A stretch of DNA of 64,000 nt, taken from positions 1-64,000 of the forward strand of contig NZ_PVYW01000020.1 of the NCBI RefSeq assembly GCF_003001675.1, in the 5' to 3' direction. The stretch comes from Cohnella sp. SGD-V74 (lineage in GTDB: Bacteria; Bacillota; Bacilli; Paenibacillales; Paenibacillaceae). Position numbers and translations under genes: made by a program. Under the pieces are notes generated by a model. That model was given only the letters and a program-made list of their open reading frames with translations, did not search any database and had not been told where the DNA came from. Shown piece by piece: positions 2,940 through 54,340 of this stretch; the first letter of the stretch is position 1; each line of letters opens with the position of its first letter.

Positions 2940-3017
2940 GCCGTGCGGCCTCCTTTTAGGTGCGTAGAAGGTTGTATTCTTCCCTGCCTGTGCAACCTCC
3001 TGCCTTCGTCGACTGGC

Positions 3018-3055
3018 AAAAAAAACGAAAGACTGCCGGAAAACTTCCGGCAGTC
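3018..3055 (-). terminator. Rho-independent terminator of the galactonate dehydratase operon
   Basis: On the minus strand GACTGCCGGA pairs with TCCGGCAGTC around a short loop, and a run of eight T follows. It lies 7 bases past the dgoD stop. Confidence 0.85.
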
Positions 3056-3061
3056 CGTCCG

Positions 3062-4213
3062 TTACCACTCCGCTACGCTGCCGTCCTCGTGGCGCCAGAG
3101 CGGATTTTTCCAATTGTGTCCGATCGCCGCCATCTTGCGTACATGCTCCTCGTCGATCTCGATGCCCAGCCCCGGTCCGTTCGGAATGGCGACGAAGCCG
3201 TTCGTGTAGGCGAATACGGAAGGATCGACGATGTAGTCCAACAAATCGTTGCCCTGGTTATAATGAATGCCCAAGCTCTGCTCTTGAATGAAGGCGTTAT
3301 GGCAAGTCGCGTCCACCTGCAAGCAGGCGGCCAGCGCAATCGGTCCGAGCGGACAGTGCGGCGCGAGCGCCACGTCGTAAGCCTCTGCCATACTCGCGAT
3401 TTTCTTGCATTCCGTAATTCCGCCCGCGTGGGAGACGTCCGGCTGGATGATATCGACGTACCCGTCCGAGAGCAAGCCCTTGAAATCCCAGCGCGAAAAC
3501 ATTCTCTCTCCCGTCGCGATCGGGATTTGCGCGGCGCGGGCGATCTCCCGAAGCGCCTCGTTGTTTTCCGGCAGGACGGGCTCTTCGATGAACATCGGGC
3601 GGAAAGCTTCCAGCTCCTTCGCCAGCACTTTCGCCATCGGCTTGTGCACCCTGCCGTGAAAGTCGATGCCGATGCCGAAATGGGAACCGACAGCCGAACG
3701 AACCGCGGCTACCCGTTCGAGCACCTGATCGATTTTCTCGTGCGTATCGACGTATTGCAGTTCCTCGGTTCCGTTCATTTTGACGGCCGTGAAGCCTTGC
3801 GCCTTCGCCCGTGCTGCCGCCTCGCCGACATCGGACGGACGGTCGCCGCCGATCCAGGAATACACCTTGATCTTGCTGCGGCAAGCTCCGCCCATCAATT
3901 GATAGACGGGCGCTTGGTGGAACTTGCCCTTGATGTCCCACAGCGCCTGGTCGATTCCGGCGATCGCGCTCATCAGAATCGGTCCCCCGCGATAGAAGCC
4001 TCCCCGGTACATCGCTTGCCAGTGGTCTTCGATGTCCAGCGGGTTTTTCCCGATCAGATACCCGCTCAGTTCCTCAACCGCCGCTTTTACCGTATGCGCC
4101 TTGCCTTCGACGATCGGCTCTCCCCAACCCGTTATGCCTTCGTCGGTCTCGATTTTCAAAAACAGCCATCTCGGCGGTACGACGAACGTTTCCATTTTCG
4201 TGATTTTCATCAT
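3062..4213 (-). CDS. dgoD: D-galactonate dehydratase
   Basis: Enolase-superfamily enzyme of 383 residues, the usual DgoD length. It dehydrates D-galactonate to 2-keto-3-deoxy-galactonate in the De Ley-Doudoroff route. Family signatures visible in order: GWGEPIVEG near the N terminus, [20 protein letters not shown], metal-ligand segments DFHGRVH, FIEEPV and ATGERMFS, the catalytic-His segment [10 protein letters not shown], and the C-terminal [11 protein letters not shown]. Similarity to the E. coli enzyme extends end to end from memory. It overlaps the upstream GntR gene by 4 bases (ATGA), so the two are translationally coupled. Two tandem ATGs occur at the start and either could be used. It fits a locus that releases galactose from plant polymers. 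Confidence 0.93.
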
Positions 4214-4887
4214 TCGCTTCCTCTCGTTTGTATGGCGTTCAGCATGTCTTGAATGTGCGCTTTCATCAACGCGCGCGCTTGCTCCGGCTGCCGCTCCTCG
4301 ATCGCGATGGCGATCAGCCGGTGATACCCGGCCGCCTTCTCCCGCATGCGGGGGAGCTTATCCGTCTCTCTTCTGCCCTGCGCGGACAAATCCGCCACGA
4401 CGCTCAGCATCTGCGCCAGCAGCGGATTGCCCGCTCCGTCGGCGATCTCCTGATGGAAGCTCACGTCGGTCGCGAAATGATCCTCACCGGCATTCATCTG
4501 CGCCTCCATCCGATCGCACAGTTCGCGGATGGAACGGGCCTGCGCGACGGAACATCGAACCGCGCAATAAGCCGCCAGCTCCGGCTCGATCGTCAGGCGA
4601 GCCTCCAACAGCTGGATCAGCGATCGCGTCTCCATCCCCCTCAGCCGGTCCACCGGATCGGCCAACAGCTCCGGATCGTTCGTAATGAAAATTCCCCGTC
4701 CGTGCTCAATGCTGACGATTCTCCGGCTCTCCAGCACGCGCAGCGCCTCGCGGACCGCCGTCAGGCTGTAGCCGTAGCGCGACGCCAGCTGCTGCATCGT
4801 CGGCAGCCGCTCTCCCGGCTTCCACTCCCCGGTGCGAATTCTCTCTTCCATCTGCTTCAGAATTTCTTCGTGAGCCAGCTTCTTCAT
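4210..4887 (-). CDS. GntR-family regulator, FadR subfamily (FCD domain)
   Basis: A 225-residue cytoplasmic repressor-type protein. Residues 1-70 form the GntR winged helix ([34 protein letters not shown]). The rest is an all-helical FCD ligand domain, with metal-site-like residues in [14 protein letters not shown] and a late His in AHIQDML. FadR/FCD members commonly sense sugar acids. As the first gene of the dgoD operon, this one plausibly responds to galactonate or a related acid; the ligand is inferred. The ATG at 4887 is preceded only by a weak AGCGAGG. The AT-rich region upstream holds repeated AAGATAATA words that could be its own operator. Confidence 0.9.
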
Positions 4888-47550: not shown

Positions 47551-48129
47551 CTACTGACGCAGATTCTCCGGAAAAATAGCGGAGAGGTCGATGCCCAGGC
47601 AGGGGACAGTCGGGGAGGTCAGCGTATCCCCTTCCGACAACGTCGCCGCCAGTTCGTAACGTCCTTCCCGCAGAACGAATTGGTCGACAGTCCGATAGAT
47701 CGGATCGGCAAGCCAATACTCCTTGACGCCGAACTGCTCATACAGCGCTTTTTTCACCTTTTTGTCATGGCGGCCCGTGCTCTCGGACAGAATCTCTACC
47801 AGCAAATCCGGCACACCGAAGATGAATCCATCATGGATCATATCCAACCGCTCGCTCGCAATGTAGATGACGTCGGGCTGCACGATATTGTTTTCATCAA
47901 AATGCACGTCCATCGGCGCCAGCAGAATCTCTCCCTCTTGGCTGCACGAACTGTGGAAGGCAAGATAGAAATTCGTCAGCATTTTCTGATGCGCGTACTT
48001 GGGTGAGGACAGAAAATCATAACGTACCCCTCCGATGATTTCATAGCGCTCTTCAATCAGAGAGTAGGATTCCTGCTGTTCTTTTACCTTATCATTCCGA
48101 GAGCGTGCCGGGGGCTTGGATCGATTCAT
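47551..48129 (-). CDS. Uma2 family (DUF820) PD-(D/E)XK nuclease-like protein, copy A
   Basis: A 192-residue protein with the restriction-endonuclease-like fold of Uma2 proteins. Landmarks: EERYEIIGGVRYDFLSSPKYAHQKM, PDVIYIASERLDMIHDGFIFGVPDLLVEILSES with the Asp/Glu metal ligands, and KKALYEQFGVKEYWLADP. Family members are abundant in Paenibacillaceae and cyanobacteria, and their role is unclear. The ATG at 48129 is chosen (GGAG 10 nt upstream); an upstream GTG at 48189 has no site. It is nearly identical to copy B at 48863-49441, and the duplicated DNA spans about 640 bp. Confidence 0.85.
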   Translation of the reverse strand: MNRSKPPARSRNDKVKEQQESYSLIEERYEIIGGVRYDFLSSPKYAHQKMLTNFYLAFHSSCSQEGEILLAPMDVHFDENNIVQPDVIYIASERLDMIHDGFIFGVPDLLVEILSESTGRHDKKVKKALYEQFGVKEYWLADPIYRTVDQFVLREGRYELAATLSEGDTLTSPTVPCLGIDLSAIFPENLRQ

Positions 48130-48192
48130 CGCCGCATCACTCCATCTTAGTTTCAGGAATCTGTCAAGCAGGCTCTTTTTACTGGTCACTTT

Positions 48193-48498
48193 CTAAAGTA
48201 AAAAGCCATATTTTCTCTTTCCGTGCAGAACTCTACGAATTTCAATAAATTCAAGATAAACAACGTAAAAGACTAAATAATTGTCAACTACTAGCATTCG
48301 GTAATTCAACAGCTGTAATCTTTTATCATTTGGAATCGGCCCACTGTGAGGAAAGTATGCAAGGGTTGATATTTTTTCATCAAACAGATTAAGGAGGTTT
48401 AGGGCAGCTGGAGGGTTATCAACGGAGATATACTCGATGATATCGGTAATATCTTGTGAAGCCGAAGGCAGGTATTTAATCGGCAACTTTTTCTCCAT
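48193..48498 (-). CDS. RelE/ParE-family toxin
   Basis: A 101-residue protein of the RelE/ParE superfamily. Family pattern: YLPSASQDITDIIEYISVDNPPAALNLLNLFDEKI, LAYFPHSGPIPND, YRMLVVDNYLVFYVVYLEFIEIRRVLHGKRKY. It would act as an mRNA interferase or gyrase poison that the neighbouring antitoxin neutralises. It overlaps the antitoxin gene by 23 bases, and AAGGAG precedes its ATG. AT-rich composition suggests it came with the accessory region. Confidence 0.88.
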   Translation of the reverse strand: MEKKLPIKYLPSASQDITDIIEYISVDNPPAALNLLNLFDEKISTLAYFPHSGPIPNDKRLQLLNYRMLVVDNYLVFYVVYLEFIEIRRVLHGKRKYGFLL

Positions 48499-48769
48499 TA
48501 ATACGACTCCTTAAAGTTTTCATAAGATCATCATGATCAATTTTCTCAACTGATGAATCTGCACTTTCTGTCTCGGCGACAGCCAGCTTTTGATACAGTT
48601 CAATAATTGCTTGCTGCTTCTCATACAATGCATGGCTCATTACTACCAGATCCTCATGTCCATTTTTTGTAATGAATACAGGCTCACCTTCAGAATGGCA
48701 AACTTCAGAAATGTAATTGAAATTATTTCTCAGATCAGAGATGGGCTTGATAATCGGCAATGAAATCAC
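48476..48769 (-). CDS. Phd/YefM-family antitoxin
   Basis: A 97-residue antitoxin. The N-terminal Phd/YefM DNA-binding fold reads IIKPISDLRNNFNYISEVCHSEGEPVFITKNGHEDLVVMSHALYE. The C-terminal acidic helix would wrap the toxin. It starts at GTG 48769 with a weak site. It normally represses its own operon together with the toxin. The first ~10 residues are repeated as a relic at 50031-50060. Confidence 0.88.
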   Translation of the reverse strand: MISLPIIKPISDLRNNFNYISEVCHSEGEPVFITKNGHEDLVVMSHALYEKQQAIIELYQKLAVAETESADSSVEKIDHDDLMKTLRSRINGEKVAD

Positions 48770-48862: not shown

Positions 48863-49441
48863 CTACTGACGCAGATTCTCCGGGAAAATAGCGGAGAGGT
48901 CGATGCCCAGGCAGGGGACAGTCGGGGAGGTTAGCGTATCCCCTTCCGACAACGTCGCCGCCAGTTCGTAACGTCCTTCCCGCAGAACGAATTGGTCGAC
49001 GGTCCGATAGATCGGGTCGGCAAGCCAATACTCCTTGACGCCGAACTGCTCGTACAGCGCTTTTTTCACCTTTTTGTCATGGCGGCCCGTGCTCTCGGAC
49101 AGAATCTCTACCAGCAAATCCGGCACTCCGAAGACAAATCCGTCATGGATCATATCCAGCCGTTCGCTCGCAATGTAGATGACGTCGGGCTGCACGATAT
49201 TGTTTTCATCAAAATGCACGTCCATCGGCGCCAGCAGAATCTCTCCCTCTTGGCTGCATGCACTGTGGAACGCCAGATGGAAATTCGTCAGCATTTTCTG
49301 ATGCGCGTACTTGGGCGAGGACAGAAAATCATAGCGTACCCCTCCGATGATTTCATAGCGCTCTTCAATCAGAGAGTAGGTTTCCTGCTGCTCTTTCACC
49401 TTATCATTCCGAGGACGTGCCGGGGGCTTGGATCGATTCAT
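48863..49441 (-). CDS. Uma2 family (DUF820) protein, copy B
   Basis: A 192-residue duplicate of copy A, differing at only a handful of positions (for example SACSQEG for SSCSQEG, FVFGVPD for FIFGVPD). The metal-ligand motif VPDLLVEILSES and KEYWLADP are intact. The same start and ribosome site are conserved. The duplication ends at CTTTACCGGTCAC near 49500; beyond that point the sequence turns into a pgsA fragment, whereas copy A continues into the toxin gene. Confidence 0.85.
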   Translation of the reverse strand: MNRSKPPARPRNDKVKEQQETYSLIEERYEIIGGVRYDFLSSPKYAHQKMLTNFHLAFHSACSQEGEILLAPMDVHFDENNIVQPDVIYIASERLDMIHDGFVFGVPDLLVEILSESTGRHDKKVKKALYEQFGVKEYWLADPIYRTVDQFVLREGRYELAATLSEGDTLTSPTVPCLGIDLSAIFPENLRQ

Positions 49442-49495
49442 CGCCGCATCACTCCATCTTAGTTTCAGGAATCTGTCAAGCAGGCTCTCTTTACC

Positions 49496-49550
49496 GGTCA
49501 CATTGCAAGAGGATACACCATGGTAACGAATCTCTGGAAGCTTCTCAATG
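49496..49550 (+). pseudogene. Short relic of a pgsA gene
   Basis: In the plus frame this reads GHIARGYTMVTNLWKLLN, matching GHIARKYNMVTNLGKLLD of the pgsA at 46332-46919 at 14 of 18 residues. The bases are clearly homologous but diverged. Nothing of the gene lies on either side. Confidence 0.75.
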
Positions 49551-50074: not shown

Positions 50075-53000
50075 TTAAGAACACTTGCTGTAACCGCAGT
50101 TGCCGCAAGTTTTGCAACCCTCGACGTTCAGCAGAGAGGCCGAGCCGCAGGATGGGCACAGATCCTTCGAGGTGTAGGCGGCTATCGGCTTCTCCGATAC
50201 GTAACCCGCCGAAGCGGTCGACGTCTCGGCCGCGGCTGCTTGCTCGTGATCCGAAGCAATCCCAGCATGCGCCTCCAGCGCTTGAGCGACGGCATCGGCG
50301 ATCGACTCGACGCGGTTCGGACCGAAGCCGACAGCGCCGGAGCCTCCGATACCTTTCAAGTGCTTGACCAGCAATTGAACCTTGTCGCCATGATCCCCGT
50401 AGCGCAGGAACAACGAGCAGACACGTCCCAGCGCTTCCGCCATCGCGAACACGTCGGAGCCGGCTTTGCCCACGTTTAGGAAGATCTCTCCCGGCGTACC
50501 GTCCATGTCGTTAACCGTAATATAGGCCATGCCGAACGGCGTGTTGTATTTGTAGGTCGCCCCGCGAAGAATTTTCGGACGACTCTTGTACTGCTTGTCG
50601 AACACCTGTCTCTGCTGCGGAGTGACGCTCGAGTTCAGCGCAGTATCCAACGTCGCGGCCGGACCAGCTTCGGTTTGGGCGTCCGCTGCTGGCGCCTCTT
50701 CCGCCTTCTCCTCTTCCTTCTTCTCATCCTTCGCTGTGCTCAGCACTTGCACGTCCCGGCTGCCGTCGCGGTAGATCGTAACGCCTTTACAGCCAAGCTC
50801 GAACGCAAGCTCATATAATTCGGCCGTCTCTTCCACCGTAAAGTCCGAAGGACAATTCGCCGTCTTCGAGATCGAGCTGTCCACCCAGCGCTGAATGGCC
50901 GCCTGTACGCGAATATGATCCTTCGCAGACAAATCCATCGCCGTAACAAACCACTCGGGAAGTTCTTCTCCCGGGTGCGCATCCTTCCATTTCTGAGCGA
51001 TTGGGACAAGCTGCTTGTCGAAGCCAAGTCGACTCTGACGGTAAAACTCAAAAGCAAAGTACGGCTCAATCCCTGTAGAAGTGCCGACCATCGTGCCGGT
51101 AGAACCGGTCGGAGCCTGCGTAAGAACGGTGACGTTGCGAATGCCGCGCTTGGCAACCGCCTCGCCCACTTCCGGGTAAGTTGCGACCATATTTTTCATA
51201 AACCCGCTTTGCAGGAATGGATCGGCCTCGAACGCCGGGAACGAACCTTTCTCCGCAGCGATCTCCGTTGAAGCGAGATACGCCTCGCGTGCCATAAAGC
51301 CATACAACTTGTCAAGAAACTCCAAGCTTTCCGGACTGCCGTAGCGGATTTCCAACTGGATCATCAATTCCGCGAGCCCCATTGTGCCGAGACCGACGCG
51401 GCGCTCGTTCTGTTGGTTTTTCTGATTTTCCGGGAAGTGATAAGGCGTCTTGTCGATCACGTTGTCCAGGAAACGAGTCGAGTAACGAACGACCTTGGAC
51501 AGTTCGTCCCAGGCAACATCGTGCGCCGCAGCATCGTAAAACTTGGACAGATTAACGGCGGACAAGTTGCATACTCCCCATGCGGGCAAGCCTTGTTCCA
51601 TTTTAAGTGTTATCCTACCGGCTTTTTATCCGATAGTTCTAACGGTTCGTGTTCCCGTTAGGTCGGCATATCTTTTCGCATCGCCAGCGCGATGCGTCGC
51701 GGCCTCGTGGACGGATTATATTCTGCATATCGCAGGTTCACCGTCTATGCTCTGCCCCTGACCGGACTTTTGGATTTCCGGCCTTCGGTTCGGATTAGCT
51801 TCTCAGCCTTCCCGCTTCATTCCGCGATTTTTAACGTGAGGCAAACTAGGCAACCTTACCACACGGATTCGTACAAATAATCGGGTTAAAGTACCAACTG
51901 TTGGACATCTGGTTGTAGTATTCCATGAACACGACGCCAGGCTCGGCGGACTTCCATGCGCTTTCGATGATTGTGTTCCAGACGTCGCGCGCACGAACCG
52001 TGCGATAATGTACGACTTTTTTGCCGCGCTGCTTCCATTTATCCAGATCGCCATCCCAGAGAATGTCGTACTCGGGGTCCTGCGAATCCGGGAACACCAG
52101 CTCCCAATCCGAGTCTTCCTTGACTGCCTTCATGAACGCGTTGCTTACGCAGACGGACAGGTTGGCGTTGGTCACCTGCCCCATCGTCTGCTTCACGGTA
52201 ATGAAGTCTTCGACGTCCGGGTGCCAATCGTTGATCATTAGCATTAAGGCGCCGCGCCGACTATTTGATGTATAGAACCCGTTGCCGCAAAGCATGTGGA
52301 CTTCATCAACCTCGAAGTCGTATACTTCGCTCATCCCTATTGGTTCGATCGACACAATGCGGTCGGGCATCGTAGTCAACATTTGTTCTACACGTTCCGC
52401 CAATGCAACCTGGCCATCCTCGTGAAGGCGATCTTTCACCCGAGTTAGCGCTCGAAATGAAATACGCGATTTCGTCGAATCCCATATCCCTTGATAATAA
52501 CGCCCAGGAATGCGAAGCTGTCCCCAAACTTCACGAGGGTAACTATTGCCGTGATTGCGTAAGCCTGCATTTTTCTTGTCTTTATGGGACAACTCGATAA
52601 ATTGGCTCATTCTCTCTTTGAACTCGGCCCCTGTTACGCAAAGGCGATGAATGGTTTTCCATTCTTGAGGGCTTCGATCGGTCGAATTAATATGCGACAT
52701 GATGCCATTGGCAGCCAGCAATTGCTGGACGTCACGAAGCATTTCAAGACTGATACTATCGAATCCGTATCCTCCCTTGGAGCCGCGATCGCATCCATCC
52801 GCATCGAAGTATCCTGCTACGAAAGCTCCCATCACGCTCGACCGGGAGCGAAAGATCAGTTCGGGCACTCTAATGTCTTGGCTGCGGGCCTTCAACATTC
52901 GATTTTGCTCGAGCCAGTCCACCACGATTCGGGAATATACAGCTATATTTTTACAGGCTCCATCTCCTGCCTCTACAACCGGCTCAATTCCAAACAGTTC

Positions 53001-54206
53001 CCGTACCAATTCCACGAGGAAATCGCGAATGCCGGGACGATCGTCGGCAGTTGCGAGTTTGATCGCTTTCGGCGCCTCCCAATTGACTTTGCGCCCCCAA
53101 TGTACGTATCCGTCCCCATAAAAGTAACCCATCAAGTAAGCCAAGCGTTCGTCAAGCAGCTTGGGCAATCTCACCGATTCGTTCAACATCGTGCTCATCT
53201 CGGAACGCGGGTACGATTCGGCCTGCAGCTGTACATAGGGAACTTCCTGCAAACCGTCTGCCAGCAAAGTCAAGGTTTCCGAGTCTACGGCCAAATCCCG
53301 CAATGGAATCGTCGTAACGGAACCGTTGCGGATAACTCCCATTTTGTGATCCTTTGTCACATCGACGGTAAAGCCGCGTTCCGTGGTCACCCGGAACAAA
53401 GGTTTGACGCCATTGCGAAAAGAGCAGGTAATCCGGCGCGGACCCAGATGGGTCAATGCATAAAAGCTCTCTCCATGATCCATGCGATCCGCAAGCTCTT
53501 TGGCAGGAATCAGACCGCGGTTCGTTGCGATACGCTCATTCGGTCCGAAGCACCCACCCTGCTCAATCAATCCCGTCGTATAGCTGAACAGTCCGCCCCA
53601 GGATACCGCGCCGCTGGAGGCGCCGTTCACGCCCTTGACGATTGAGCGGCGAGGACGAAGCGAGCTCAGGTTGATGCCTACGCCGCCTCCGCGGGCCATA
53701 ATCTCCGTCATCTCCGCCAGCGTCTGCATAATACCGCCGCGGCTGTCATGAGGGGAAGGGATAACGTAGCAGTTAAACAGCGTCAGCTCCTCGCTGGCTC
53801 CTGCCCCCGCCGCGATCCGGCCCCCGGGAACGAGCTTCCAATCGTCGAGCAGCCAGCGGAACTTCTCCGCCCATACCTTTTGCTTCTCCGGCGTTTCTTC
53901 GACGGACGCCATCGCGTTCGCAAGCCGCGCCCACATCTCCTCCGGCGTCTTCTCGATCGTCAGCGTCAGCTTCTCGATCGTCGATTCGACCAATTCGCCG
54001 CTGCGAAGCTTGACGGTAACGTTCTTGCCCTCGCGCTTGACGACTTCCCCGACATCCTTGGAAGGAAACTTCGGGTCGTCCTTCGTCAGTACGAGCACGA
54101 CGTCGCCCGCCTTCGTCTCCCCCGTGTCCGCGTTTTTCCAGGCGTAGCGATCAAGAAATATTTTCTCGCTCAGCCCCTCGAGACGTCTTTCCTGCATCGT
54201 TGACAC
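50075..54206 (-). CDS. nrdJ: Adenosylcobalamin-dependent (class II) ribonucleotide reductase, split by an intein and a group I intron
   Basis: The host enzyme reduces ribonucleotides for DNA synthesis. After removing intron (51599-51857) and intein (52263-53552) it is 860 residues, normal for NrdJ. Exon 1 (54206-51858) has VPGGRIAAGAGA, TLFNCYVIPSPHDSRGGI, ARGGGVGINLSSLRPR, and ends ICTNPCG. Exon 2 (51598-50075) resumes EQGLPAWGVCNLSAVNL, completing the catalytic Asn-x-Cys-x-Glu motif. It continues with GTMGLAELMIQL, VTVLTQAPTGSTGTMVGTSTGIEPYFA and a C-terminal zinc ribbon (CPSCGS, CKTCGNCG). The start is GTG at 54206, 9 nt after GGAGGAG. The apparent ATG at exon 2 is the last three intron bases. 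Expression requires both RNA and protein splicing. NrdR-like boxes lie upstream. Confidence 0.93.
51599..51857 (-). ncRNA. Group I intron (IA-like, no ORF) in nrdJ
   Basis: The intron interrupts the codons GGT|GAA of the NPCGE motif. P1: exon CGUGUGGU pairs with guide GCCUCACG (51842-51835), with the required U-G at the 5' splice site. P3: UCGCGG (51827-51822) with CCGCGA (51702-51697). P7: GCAUA (51750-51746, in CAGAGCAUAGACGG) with UAUGC (51670-51666, in AAAAGAUAUGC), the R and S elements. P7.1: GACGG with CCGUC. P7.2: CUGC with GCAG. P8: CGCAUCGC with GCGAUGCG (51696-51677). P9: UAACGG with CCGUUA. P9.1: CUAUCGG with CCGGUAG. The last base is G. P7.1/P7.2 indicate subgroup IA. An in-frame stop follows the 5' splice site by three codons. 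Confidence 0.92.
52263..53552 (-). other. Intein with LAGLIDADG homing endonuclease in NrdJ
   Basis: A 430-residue in-frame insertion between QGG and SRRGALM. It begins with Cys (CFGPNERIATNRGLIPAKEL, block A). Block B has VDVTKDHKM (T-x-x-H). The endonuclease has two LAGLIDADG blocks, LAYLMGYFYGDGYV and MGAFVAGYFDADGCD. It ends VHMLCGNGFYTSN (blocks F and G), with Ser as the first C-extein residue. The usual penultimate His is Ser here. Splicing would restore GGSRRGA. Reading-frame integrity and all blocks suggest it is functional or recently so. Confidence 0.93.
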
Positions 54207-54295
54207 TGCGACCAACTCCTCCAAAACGTAGTAGGCAGGGCACAATCCATGTGCAATCAGAAGGAAATGAAAATCCAGCGCTATATGTAAATTGT

Positions 54296-54340
54296 ACAAT
54301 ATATTGTGCTCTCACGCCATTATACTCTCCTATATGTTGT
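54296..54340 (-). promoter_or_regulatory. nrdJ promoter with NrdR-like boxes
   Basis: ACAATATATTGT at 54296-54307 is a perfect palindrome of the NrdR-box type. A weaker match (9 of 12) lies at 54329-54340, 33 bp away centre to centre. A minus-strand TATAAT at 54319-54324 lies between them, so NrdR binding would cover the core promoter. The rest of 54207-54518 holds no gene. Confidence 0.6.

Follow-up and report, generated by a model that had tools for sequence, protein, structure and literature searches.

A predicted group I intron in the NPCGE motif of a class II ribonucleotide reductase gene of Cohnella, and its relatives in Bacilli and phages

The interrupted nrdJ gene and its surroundings

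A gene for a class II (B12-dependent) reductase, nrdJ, lies on the minus strand of the window, by which we mean the whole stretch of 64,000 nucleotides of Cohnella sp. SGD-V74 DNA that was analysed (Table 1). Its coding sequence is broken within the NPCGE motif. Exon 1 ends in AAT CCG TGT GGT (NPCG), with its final base at 51858 on the minus strand; an insert that reads AAGGTT...AAAATG and has G as its final base occupies 51857-51599 (259 nucleotides); and exon 2 resumes at 51598 on the same strand with GAA CAA GGC (EQG). The exon frames are open on both sides and in phase across the 259-nucleotide gap. The initial annotation had placed the break between Gly and Glu of the motif with an in-phase restart 259 nucleotides on, and this proved exact to the base. 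It had also predicted that automatic annotation would yield two broken genes and a false ATG made of intron bases. Mechanical ORF calling gives just this result, namely two pieces at 51846-54299 (817 amino acids) and 50075-51601 (508 amino acids), with the start ATG of the 508-residue piece consisting of the last three bases of the intron.

The best NCBIfam matches of both pieces are vitamin B12-dependent reductases (PRK08115 for exon 1 and PRK08665 for exon 2), and both are matched by TIGR02504 (NrdJ_Z) as well. Taken singly, the pieces score below the NCBIfam whole-protein cut-offs, because each is only part of the protein. Pfam recognizes the reductase barrel in both pieces and a TSCPD domain in exon 2. 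Exon 1 is itself interrupted by an in-frame LAGLIDADG intein, delimited by domain matches and by comparison with genome G024, in which the intron is present and the IEQGG intein absent. Genome G001 has neither element.

The genome also contains two class Ib NrdE genes, whose NrdE products are without inserts; after each comes an ORF that looks NrdF-like by eye. The initial annotation had argued that an essential gene interrupted here must be spliced efficiently unless another reductase exists. Since two intron-free class Ib reductases are present, the essentiality of nrdJ does not follow, and that argument falls under its own proviso: nrdJ is not the sole reductase of the genome and need not be essential.

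Elsewhere in the window, two nearly identical ORFs of 212 amino acids are on the minus strand, at 47551-48189 and 48863-49501. Small overlapping ORFs (48193-48498 and 48476-48769) sit between them and have, by eye, the look of a toxin-antitoxin pair.

Table 1. Features of the nrdJ locus and of the predicted intron, with positions in the window
Feature	Position	Strand	Basis or remark
nrdJ, class II (B12-dependent) reductase gene	about 54197-50075	-	ORFs and domain matches
nrdJ exon 1, interrupted by intein	51858..54197	-	putative start ATG at 54197
In-frame LAGLIDADG intein at IEQGG^SRRGA, in exon 1	about 52266..53552	-	domain matches and intein-free G024
Predicted ORF-less group I intron, after the Gly codon and before the Glu codon of NPCGE	51599..51857	-	259 nt
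P1: exon CGUGUGGU (51858-51865) with IGS GCCUCACG (51835-51842)	51835..51865	-	
P10: 5' strand CCUAGUUU with 3' exon GAACAAGG (51591-51598)	51843..51850	-	
In-frame TAG, fourth codon of insert, in P1 loop	51846-51848	-	
P3: 5' strand UCGCGG, 3' strand CCGCGA	51822..51827 and 51697-51702	-	
P4	51811-51814 / 51791-51794	-	
P5	51806-51808 / 51797-51799	-	J4/5 A-rich
P6	51760..51783	-	
P7: 5' strand GAGCAUA (one bulged base), 3' strand UAUGCC	51746..51752 and 51665-51670	-	
P7.1/P7.2, two-tier hairpin	51710..51745	-	5 bp, internal loop, 4 bp
P8	51677..51696	-	place of endonuclease ORF in long relatives
P9	51655-51661 / 51639-51645	-	
P9.1	51630-51636 / 51615-51621	-	
Terminal guanosine of intron	51599	-	G in 40/40 rows with readable exon 2
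nrdJ exon 2, first codons GAA CAA	50075..51598	-	ORFs and domain matches

Occurrence at the NPCG^E site

A protein query spanning the junction found a match in all 37 genomes of the genus that were searched. The site is uninterrupted in 33 of them and carries the intron in two, the window's genome and G024, the latter with an intron identical to that of Cohnella silvisoli. The remaining two genomes, G002 (locus L086) and G027 (L085), have no intron, and contain, two codons ahead of the intron site, an in-frame insertion at NP^CGE. Judged by its sequence, this insertion is a predicted intein, and two kinds of splicing element, intein and putative intron, target one motif of nrdJ.

Relatives of the intron were collected with an exact pattern taken from the intron only, comprising the guide sequence and the P3/P4 region and including no exon base, which was searched in genome_contigs (257 billion bases). 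All 37 stretches that it retrieved immediately follow NPCG in an nrdJ frame. In 35 of these, exon 2 is readable, and two loci end too early. Adding the window, G024 and three plasmid loci to the stretches gives 42 rows, 40 of them with readable exon 2; two of the 37 stretches duplicate introns already in the set, leaving 40 distinct introns among the 42. Inserts in the 40 readable rows range from 238 to 1238 nucleotides, and every one ends in G. The same pattern had no match in viral contigs.

We also built a model of the intron, R1, from 16 introns; it contains exon bases. The window's intron scores 297 bits, and none of 19 uninterrupted loci was matched. At E<=0.001, R1 matches were found in 6 of 295 sampled genomes of the family (two at nrdJ and four in frames other than nrdJ) and in 30 of 398 sampled genomes of the class, 14 of which, the window's included, have the match at NPCG^E of nrdJ; owing to strict search filters, these genome counts are lower bounds. 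In the family to which G463 belongs, this type of NrdJ is encoded by 36 of 80 genomes, with 29 uninterrupted sites and 7 that carry the intron.

Large plasmids (0.6-1.1 Mb) of Pontibacillus, Priestia and Rossellomorea (L008-L010) have a reductase gene of their own that carries this intron at the identical position, in a form with an extended P9 region. A locus labelled Chryseobacterium sp. ISL-80 (L044) groups, in both nrdJ and intron, with Mesobacillus and related Bacillus, and the record is probably mislabelled or contaminated.

Secondary structure and covariation

The structure in Table 1 was evaluated in an alignment of 21 distinct short introns, for which 17 long rows, two with unread exon 2 and two duplicates were left out of the 42. 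The tested structure consists of P1, P10 and P3-P9.1, 69 pairs in all, and was drawn from the same sequences, which favours it over slid versions of itself. Standard pairs are formed in 96.6% of cells, and in 37 of the 69 pairs both sides change among the 21 introns. None of five covariation measures was reached by any of 500 shuffles. Six slid registers are 34-38% paired, and none attains the observed covariation.

Pairs with double changes are distributed over most of the core and periphery (P3, 2; P5, 2; P6, 6 of 7; P7, 1; P7.1, 5 of 5; P7.2, 2 of 4; P8, 6; P9, 5; P9.1, 7). P1 and P4 are invariant in the 21 introns and are therefore silent as to covariation, and P3 and P7 are 100% paired. 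The G-C pair of P7 beside the bulged base, which we take to be the guanosine site, is conserved in all 21 introns. Ahead of the bulge, four introns, the window's included, have a G-C pair and the other 17 an A-U pair. P7.2 is absent in one homologue (L040). We found no P2 in the structure drawn from the 21 introns.

P1 has seven pairs in 21/21 introns, with a U.G at the splice site (also 21/21) and a U.U mismatch inside. The inner four pairs of P10 are present in every one of the 21, and each of the outer two in only 4/21, again including the window's intron, in which all helices are intact. The fold proposed in the initial annotation, that is, P1 with its U.G, P3 adjoining P8, P7 as GCAUA/UAUGC, P9, P9.1 and a terminal G, is as described there. 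P7.1 and P7.2 are likewise present, but instead of two side-by-side hairpins we see a single hairpin in two tiers.

Folded alone, the window's sequence is of modest stability (z = -2.58; equalled by 1 of 200 shuffles). The minimum-energy structure differs from the group I fold: the IGS pairs with GGGGC of J6/7, and P1 is not formed. We did not take single-sequence folding as proof of group I structure.

Exon signature and in-frame stop

The codons CCG TGT GGT precede the intron in all 42 rows found by intron sequence. They also do so in 13 loci found with R1 and in six found by protein alone; three of the 13 repeat earlier rows, and this set is slightly biased by the exon bases in R1. None of the uninterrupted sites read has these three codons, neither the 31 in the genus (out of 33) nor the 29 in the family of G463. 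Codon use in the window's nrdJ frame (intein included) is 0.48 for CCG, 0.26 for TGT and 0.16 for GGT, a product of about 2%.

P1 depends on two of the third-position bases, G in CCG and T in GGT. The T of TGT, opposite a U, has no Watson-Crick pair in P1, yet it is fixed in carriers, while 29 of the 31 genus sites have TGC. TGT is nevertheless present at 18 of the 29 uninterrupted sites in the family of G463, which weighs against reading much into this T. This T may have been fixed by co-conversion along with a short piece of exon, or by the constraint of a nuclease site. As to the intron itself, 45 of 56 distinct carriers have their first in-frame stop entirely upstream of the IGS.

Endonuclease-like ORFs and transfer between NrdJ types

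Long inserts of 662-1238 nucleotides are found in 17 of the 40 readable rows. In 16 of the 17, a related ORF, whole or broken, lies between P3 and P7 and thus in P8; the other (L039) has an HNH gene (Pfam) near P5 instead. Open stretches of at least 310 codons, counted from stop to stop, occur in nine of the 17. The P8 protein of L031, a locus of Neobacillus niacini PL-B1, has no Pfam match above cut-off and, in the PDB, none below E 0.3. Its residues 7-72 match PHROG 21138 (function unknown) with E 1.5e-9, and two HNH endonuclease PHROGs match weakly. Inspected by eye, the protein presumably resembles a PD-(D/E)XK nuclease with a zinc-binding part, and by this look the P8 ORF is a putative endonuclease gene. 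The window's intron is the bare form, with no endonuclease gene, and would belong to a mobile element that homes to one site, as its endonuclease-free form.

Comparison of two NrdJ types hints at horizontal movement. Between Paenibacillaceae-type and Bacillaceae-type loci, the NrdJ flanks have 46% protein identity and the intron cores 81% DNA identity. With 85.7% identity, an intron from Neobacillus is nearer to the window's than the one of Aneurinibacillus aneurinilyticus is, with 79.0%. By an AU test, the six Paenibacillaceae-type introns could still form a single clade (p 0.319). Transfer of the intron between the two NrdJ types is, on these comparisons, likely, not proven. The window and G024 share 92.1% identity in the intron and 79-81% in the exons, which could reflect constraint or recent transfer and was counted neither way.

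The trees used 32 of the 42 rows. Removed were the duplicates L037 and L041, loci in which exon 2 is not reached (L026 and L028) or its flank is short or missing (L042 and L049), and four with a core that was not cut out automatically (L019, L031, L039 and L047). The AU test was run without L008-L010 as well, which form long branches.

A lineage invisible to the Rfam group I model

A search with the Rfam group I model (RF00028), which the initial annotation had named both as a check and as a refuting test, came out negative: there is no match at E<=10 in the window region or the whole genome. At the gathering cut-off, RF00028 was run on 18 of the 37 loci and on 12 nrdJ carrier loci, a set that overlaps the 18 by at least one locus, and had no match at the NPCG site in any of them. 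In ten whole phage records searched at E<=1, the model found none of the four R1 introns of LIS04, CB457P1, ZPAH34 and phiR1-37. On the same ten records it reported T4 td with 40.3 bits and T4 nrdB with 35.7 bits, both under the cut-off of 50. A broader scan (E limit 0.5, 4227 families) again gave 35.7 bits for nrdB and did not list td. The idea that RF00028 misses classical introns altogether was dropped, since td and nrdB are reported below the cut-off. Because four phage introns of the same lineage also go unseen while td and nrdB are reported, the missing match suggests a blind spot of the model and is uninformative on group I identity.

R1 extends the relationship to phages. Full-length matches of 87-176 bits are present in loci of seven: Listeria LIS04, Enterocloster CB457P1, Aeromonas ZPAH34 and AhC3_1, Yersinia phiR1-37, Exiguobacterium vB_EauM-23 and C. 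difficile phiCDIF1296T. Neighbouring genes are terminase, RNA polymerase, gyrase A or tail genes, or are hypothetical. A second pattern retrieved 32 stretches from viral contigs, 31 of which have an R1 match above 100 bits. No R1 match was found in T4, Twort, SPbeta, SPO1, K or LL-H, and in these comparisons no intron already proven to splice appears linked by sequence to the R1 lineage. In two Bacilli genomes (L150 and L151), weaker R1 matches overlap with matches of RF00028, which blurs the border of the lineage.

A plasmid record of Limosilactobacillus reuteri (L011) has R1-type introns at 2966-3249 and 4204-4451, about 1 kb apart, just before a terminase gene. Group I introns visible to RF00028 are found about 0.4-1.0 kb from the NPCG-site intron in L016, L018, L022, L023, L025 and L027, and likewise in L135, L136, L137, L138, L142 and L146. 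These neighbours are probably in the same nrdJ, and several nrdJ genes thus seem to carry at least two group I introns.

Whether the window's intron belongs to a lineage of IA-like group I introns that is separate and undescribed is, in our estimate, an evenly balanced question. Such a lineage would have an altered P7 helix, would live on chromosomes and large plasmids of Bacilli and in phages of Gram-positive and Gram-negative hosts, would be invisible to Rfam with no member known to splice, and would be marked in its nrdJ copies by a fixed synonymous exon signature. Surveys that start from the Rfam model would probably miss it too.

Identity and proposed function of the insert

We are confident, from anatomy and comparison, that the 259-nucleotide insert is a group I intron and a relative of mobile elements, very likely self-splicing, whose removal would join NPCG to EQG. 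The initial annotation had proposed an IA-type group I intron in a chromosomal class II reductase gene. This is borne out by uninterrupted relatives, occupation of the same site across Bacilli, pairing with both exons in P1 and P10, covariation in P3 and from P5 to P9.1, a final G, and the endonuclease genes that relatives carry in peripheral loops. Subgroup IA fits the presence of P7.1/P7.2, an assignment that does not distinguish IA1, IA2 and IA3.

Splicing, guanosine use, homing and intein removal are steps that we infer rather than observe, and a plausible sequence is as follows. In the transcript, the guide GCCUCACG would pair with the end of exon 1 to form P1. The P3-P9 core would take up a guanosine in P7, and this guanosine would attack after the U of GGU. 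Exon 1 would next attack after the terminal G, with exon 2 held by P10, so that NPCG is joined to EQG in an open nrdJ mRNA. Early in-frame stops may protect group I splicing from ribosomes, and the stop in the P1 loop probably bars them from the core. The upstream intein would then be removed from the protein. Relatives with an endonuclease-like ORF in P8, or in one case an HNH gene in P5, would form the patchily distributed mobile counterpart of this intron over the Bacilli.

Other explanations of the locus are less probable. The presence of two class Ib NrdE genes with NrdF-like neighbours could mean that the intron is inactive and that nrdJ is a pseudogene tolerated thanks to these reductases. 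A decayed gene is hard to reconcile with a locus in which every intron helix is intact and both exons and the intein are open from end to end. Moreover, the intron of G024 has kept the same structure although, among codons for the same residue, the nrdJ genes agree at just 52-55% of third positions, and we consider a pseudogene very improbable. Even less can be said for the notion that ribosomes skip the 259 nucleotides (translational bypassing), or that these are a relic of another mobile element. The phased exons agree with it and nothing else does, whereas the group I core with its covariation, the terminal G in 40/40 rows, the endonuclease-like genes in peripheral loops and the in-frame stop shortly after the break all oppose it, and we give it next to no credence.

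A third proposal accepts the intron and assigns splicing a regulatory role. Unspliced RNA might at times be dominant, for example under low guanosine or stalled translation, and so regulate the use of class II versus class Ib reductase. The P1-loop stop in 45/56 carriers, the ability of the IGS to pair with J6/7 in the minimum-energy fold and the alternative reductases of the genome are consistent with such a control step. The intron is patchy, however (2 of 37 genomes of the genus), unlike a regulator that is kept, and the early stops may just shield splicing from ribosomes. We therefore regard control by splicing as unlikely, if less so than a pseudogene, and favour an active group I intron.

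If this group I intron is spliced, a B12-dependent reductase needs both RNA splicing and protein splicing in this organism. Automatic annotation cuts such genes in two. The site also offers a natural series within one gene, with uninterrupted copies, introns with an open ORF, introns with a broken ORF, bare introns, and an intein at nearly the same spot, a series useful for testing the homing cycle. Finally, these introns expose a gap in an RNA family model on which surveys of group I introns draw.

Comparison with known systems

Group I introns in reductase genes are already known as a kind, in phages and in bacterial nrdE, as is an intein in the same gene in phages. The available excerpts of two papers (PMC3653736, PMC3984707) describe phage examples in nrdE and nrdF of SPbeta and nrdE of Twort, an intron and an intein within one gene in SPbeta, and group I introns in nrdE and recA of Bacillus species. 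By 2009, over 100 group I introns in ribonucleotide reductase genes had been curated in RNRdb, according to an excerpt of its description (PMC2795772). Among the matches listed, the excerpts of the literature describe no intron at the NPCGE site of nrdJ, which is no claim of its absence from print. Among the same matches, they contain no link to a fixed exon signature and no extent of a lineage undetected by Rfam. One recent database started its search from the Rfam group I model, as stated in an excerpt of that paper (PMC11835236), and other authors, in the part of their text available, call this model incomplete for other subgroups (PMC11878797).

In the excerpts mentioned above, the reductase introns of SPbeta, Twort and Bacillus resemble the window's intron in interrupting a reductase gene; that of Twort is near highly conserved residues, and SPbeta has a gene with both intron and intein. 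They differ in that their host genes are class I whereas nrdJ is class II, and R1 has no match to SPbeta, Twort, SPO1, K, LL-H or T4. Additional P7.1/P7.2 pairings and P9.1 are features of subgroup IA2 according to an excerpt of a further source (PMC4227781), and the T4 td and nrdB introns (IA2), as far as that excerpt goes, share with the window's intron an IA-like plan with P7.1/P7.2 and P9.1. The window's intron differs from td and nrdB in its P7 of GCAUA/UAUGC, in having one two-tier P7.1/P7.2 hairpin and in having no P2 that we could find; RF00028 reports the two T4 introns but neither the window's intron nor its four phage relatives. The R1 phage introns are like the window's intron in matching the model over its full length, although the genes that surround them differ from nrdJ.
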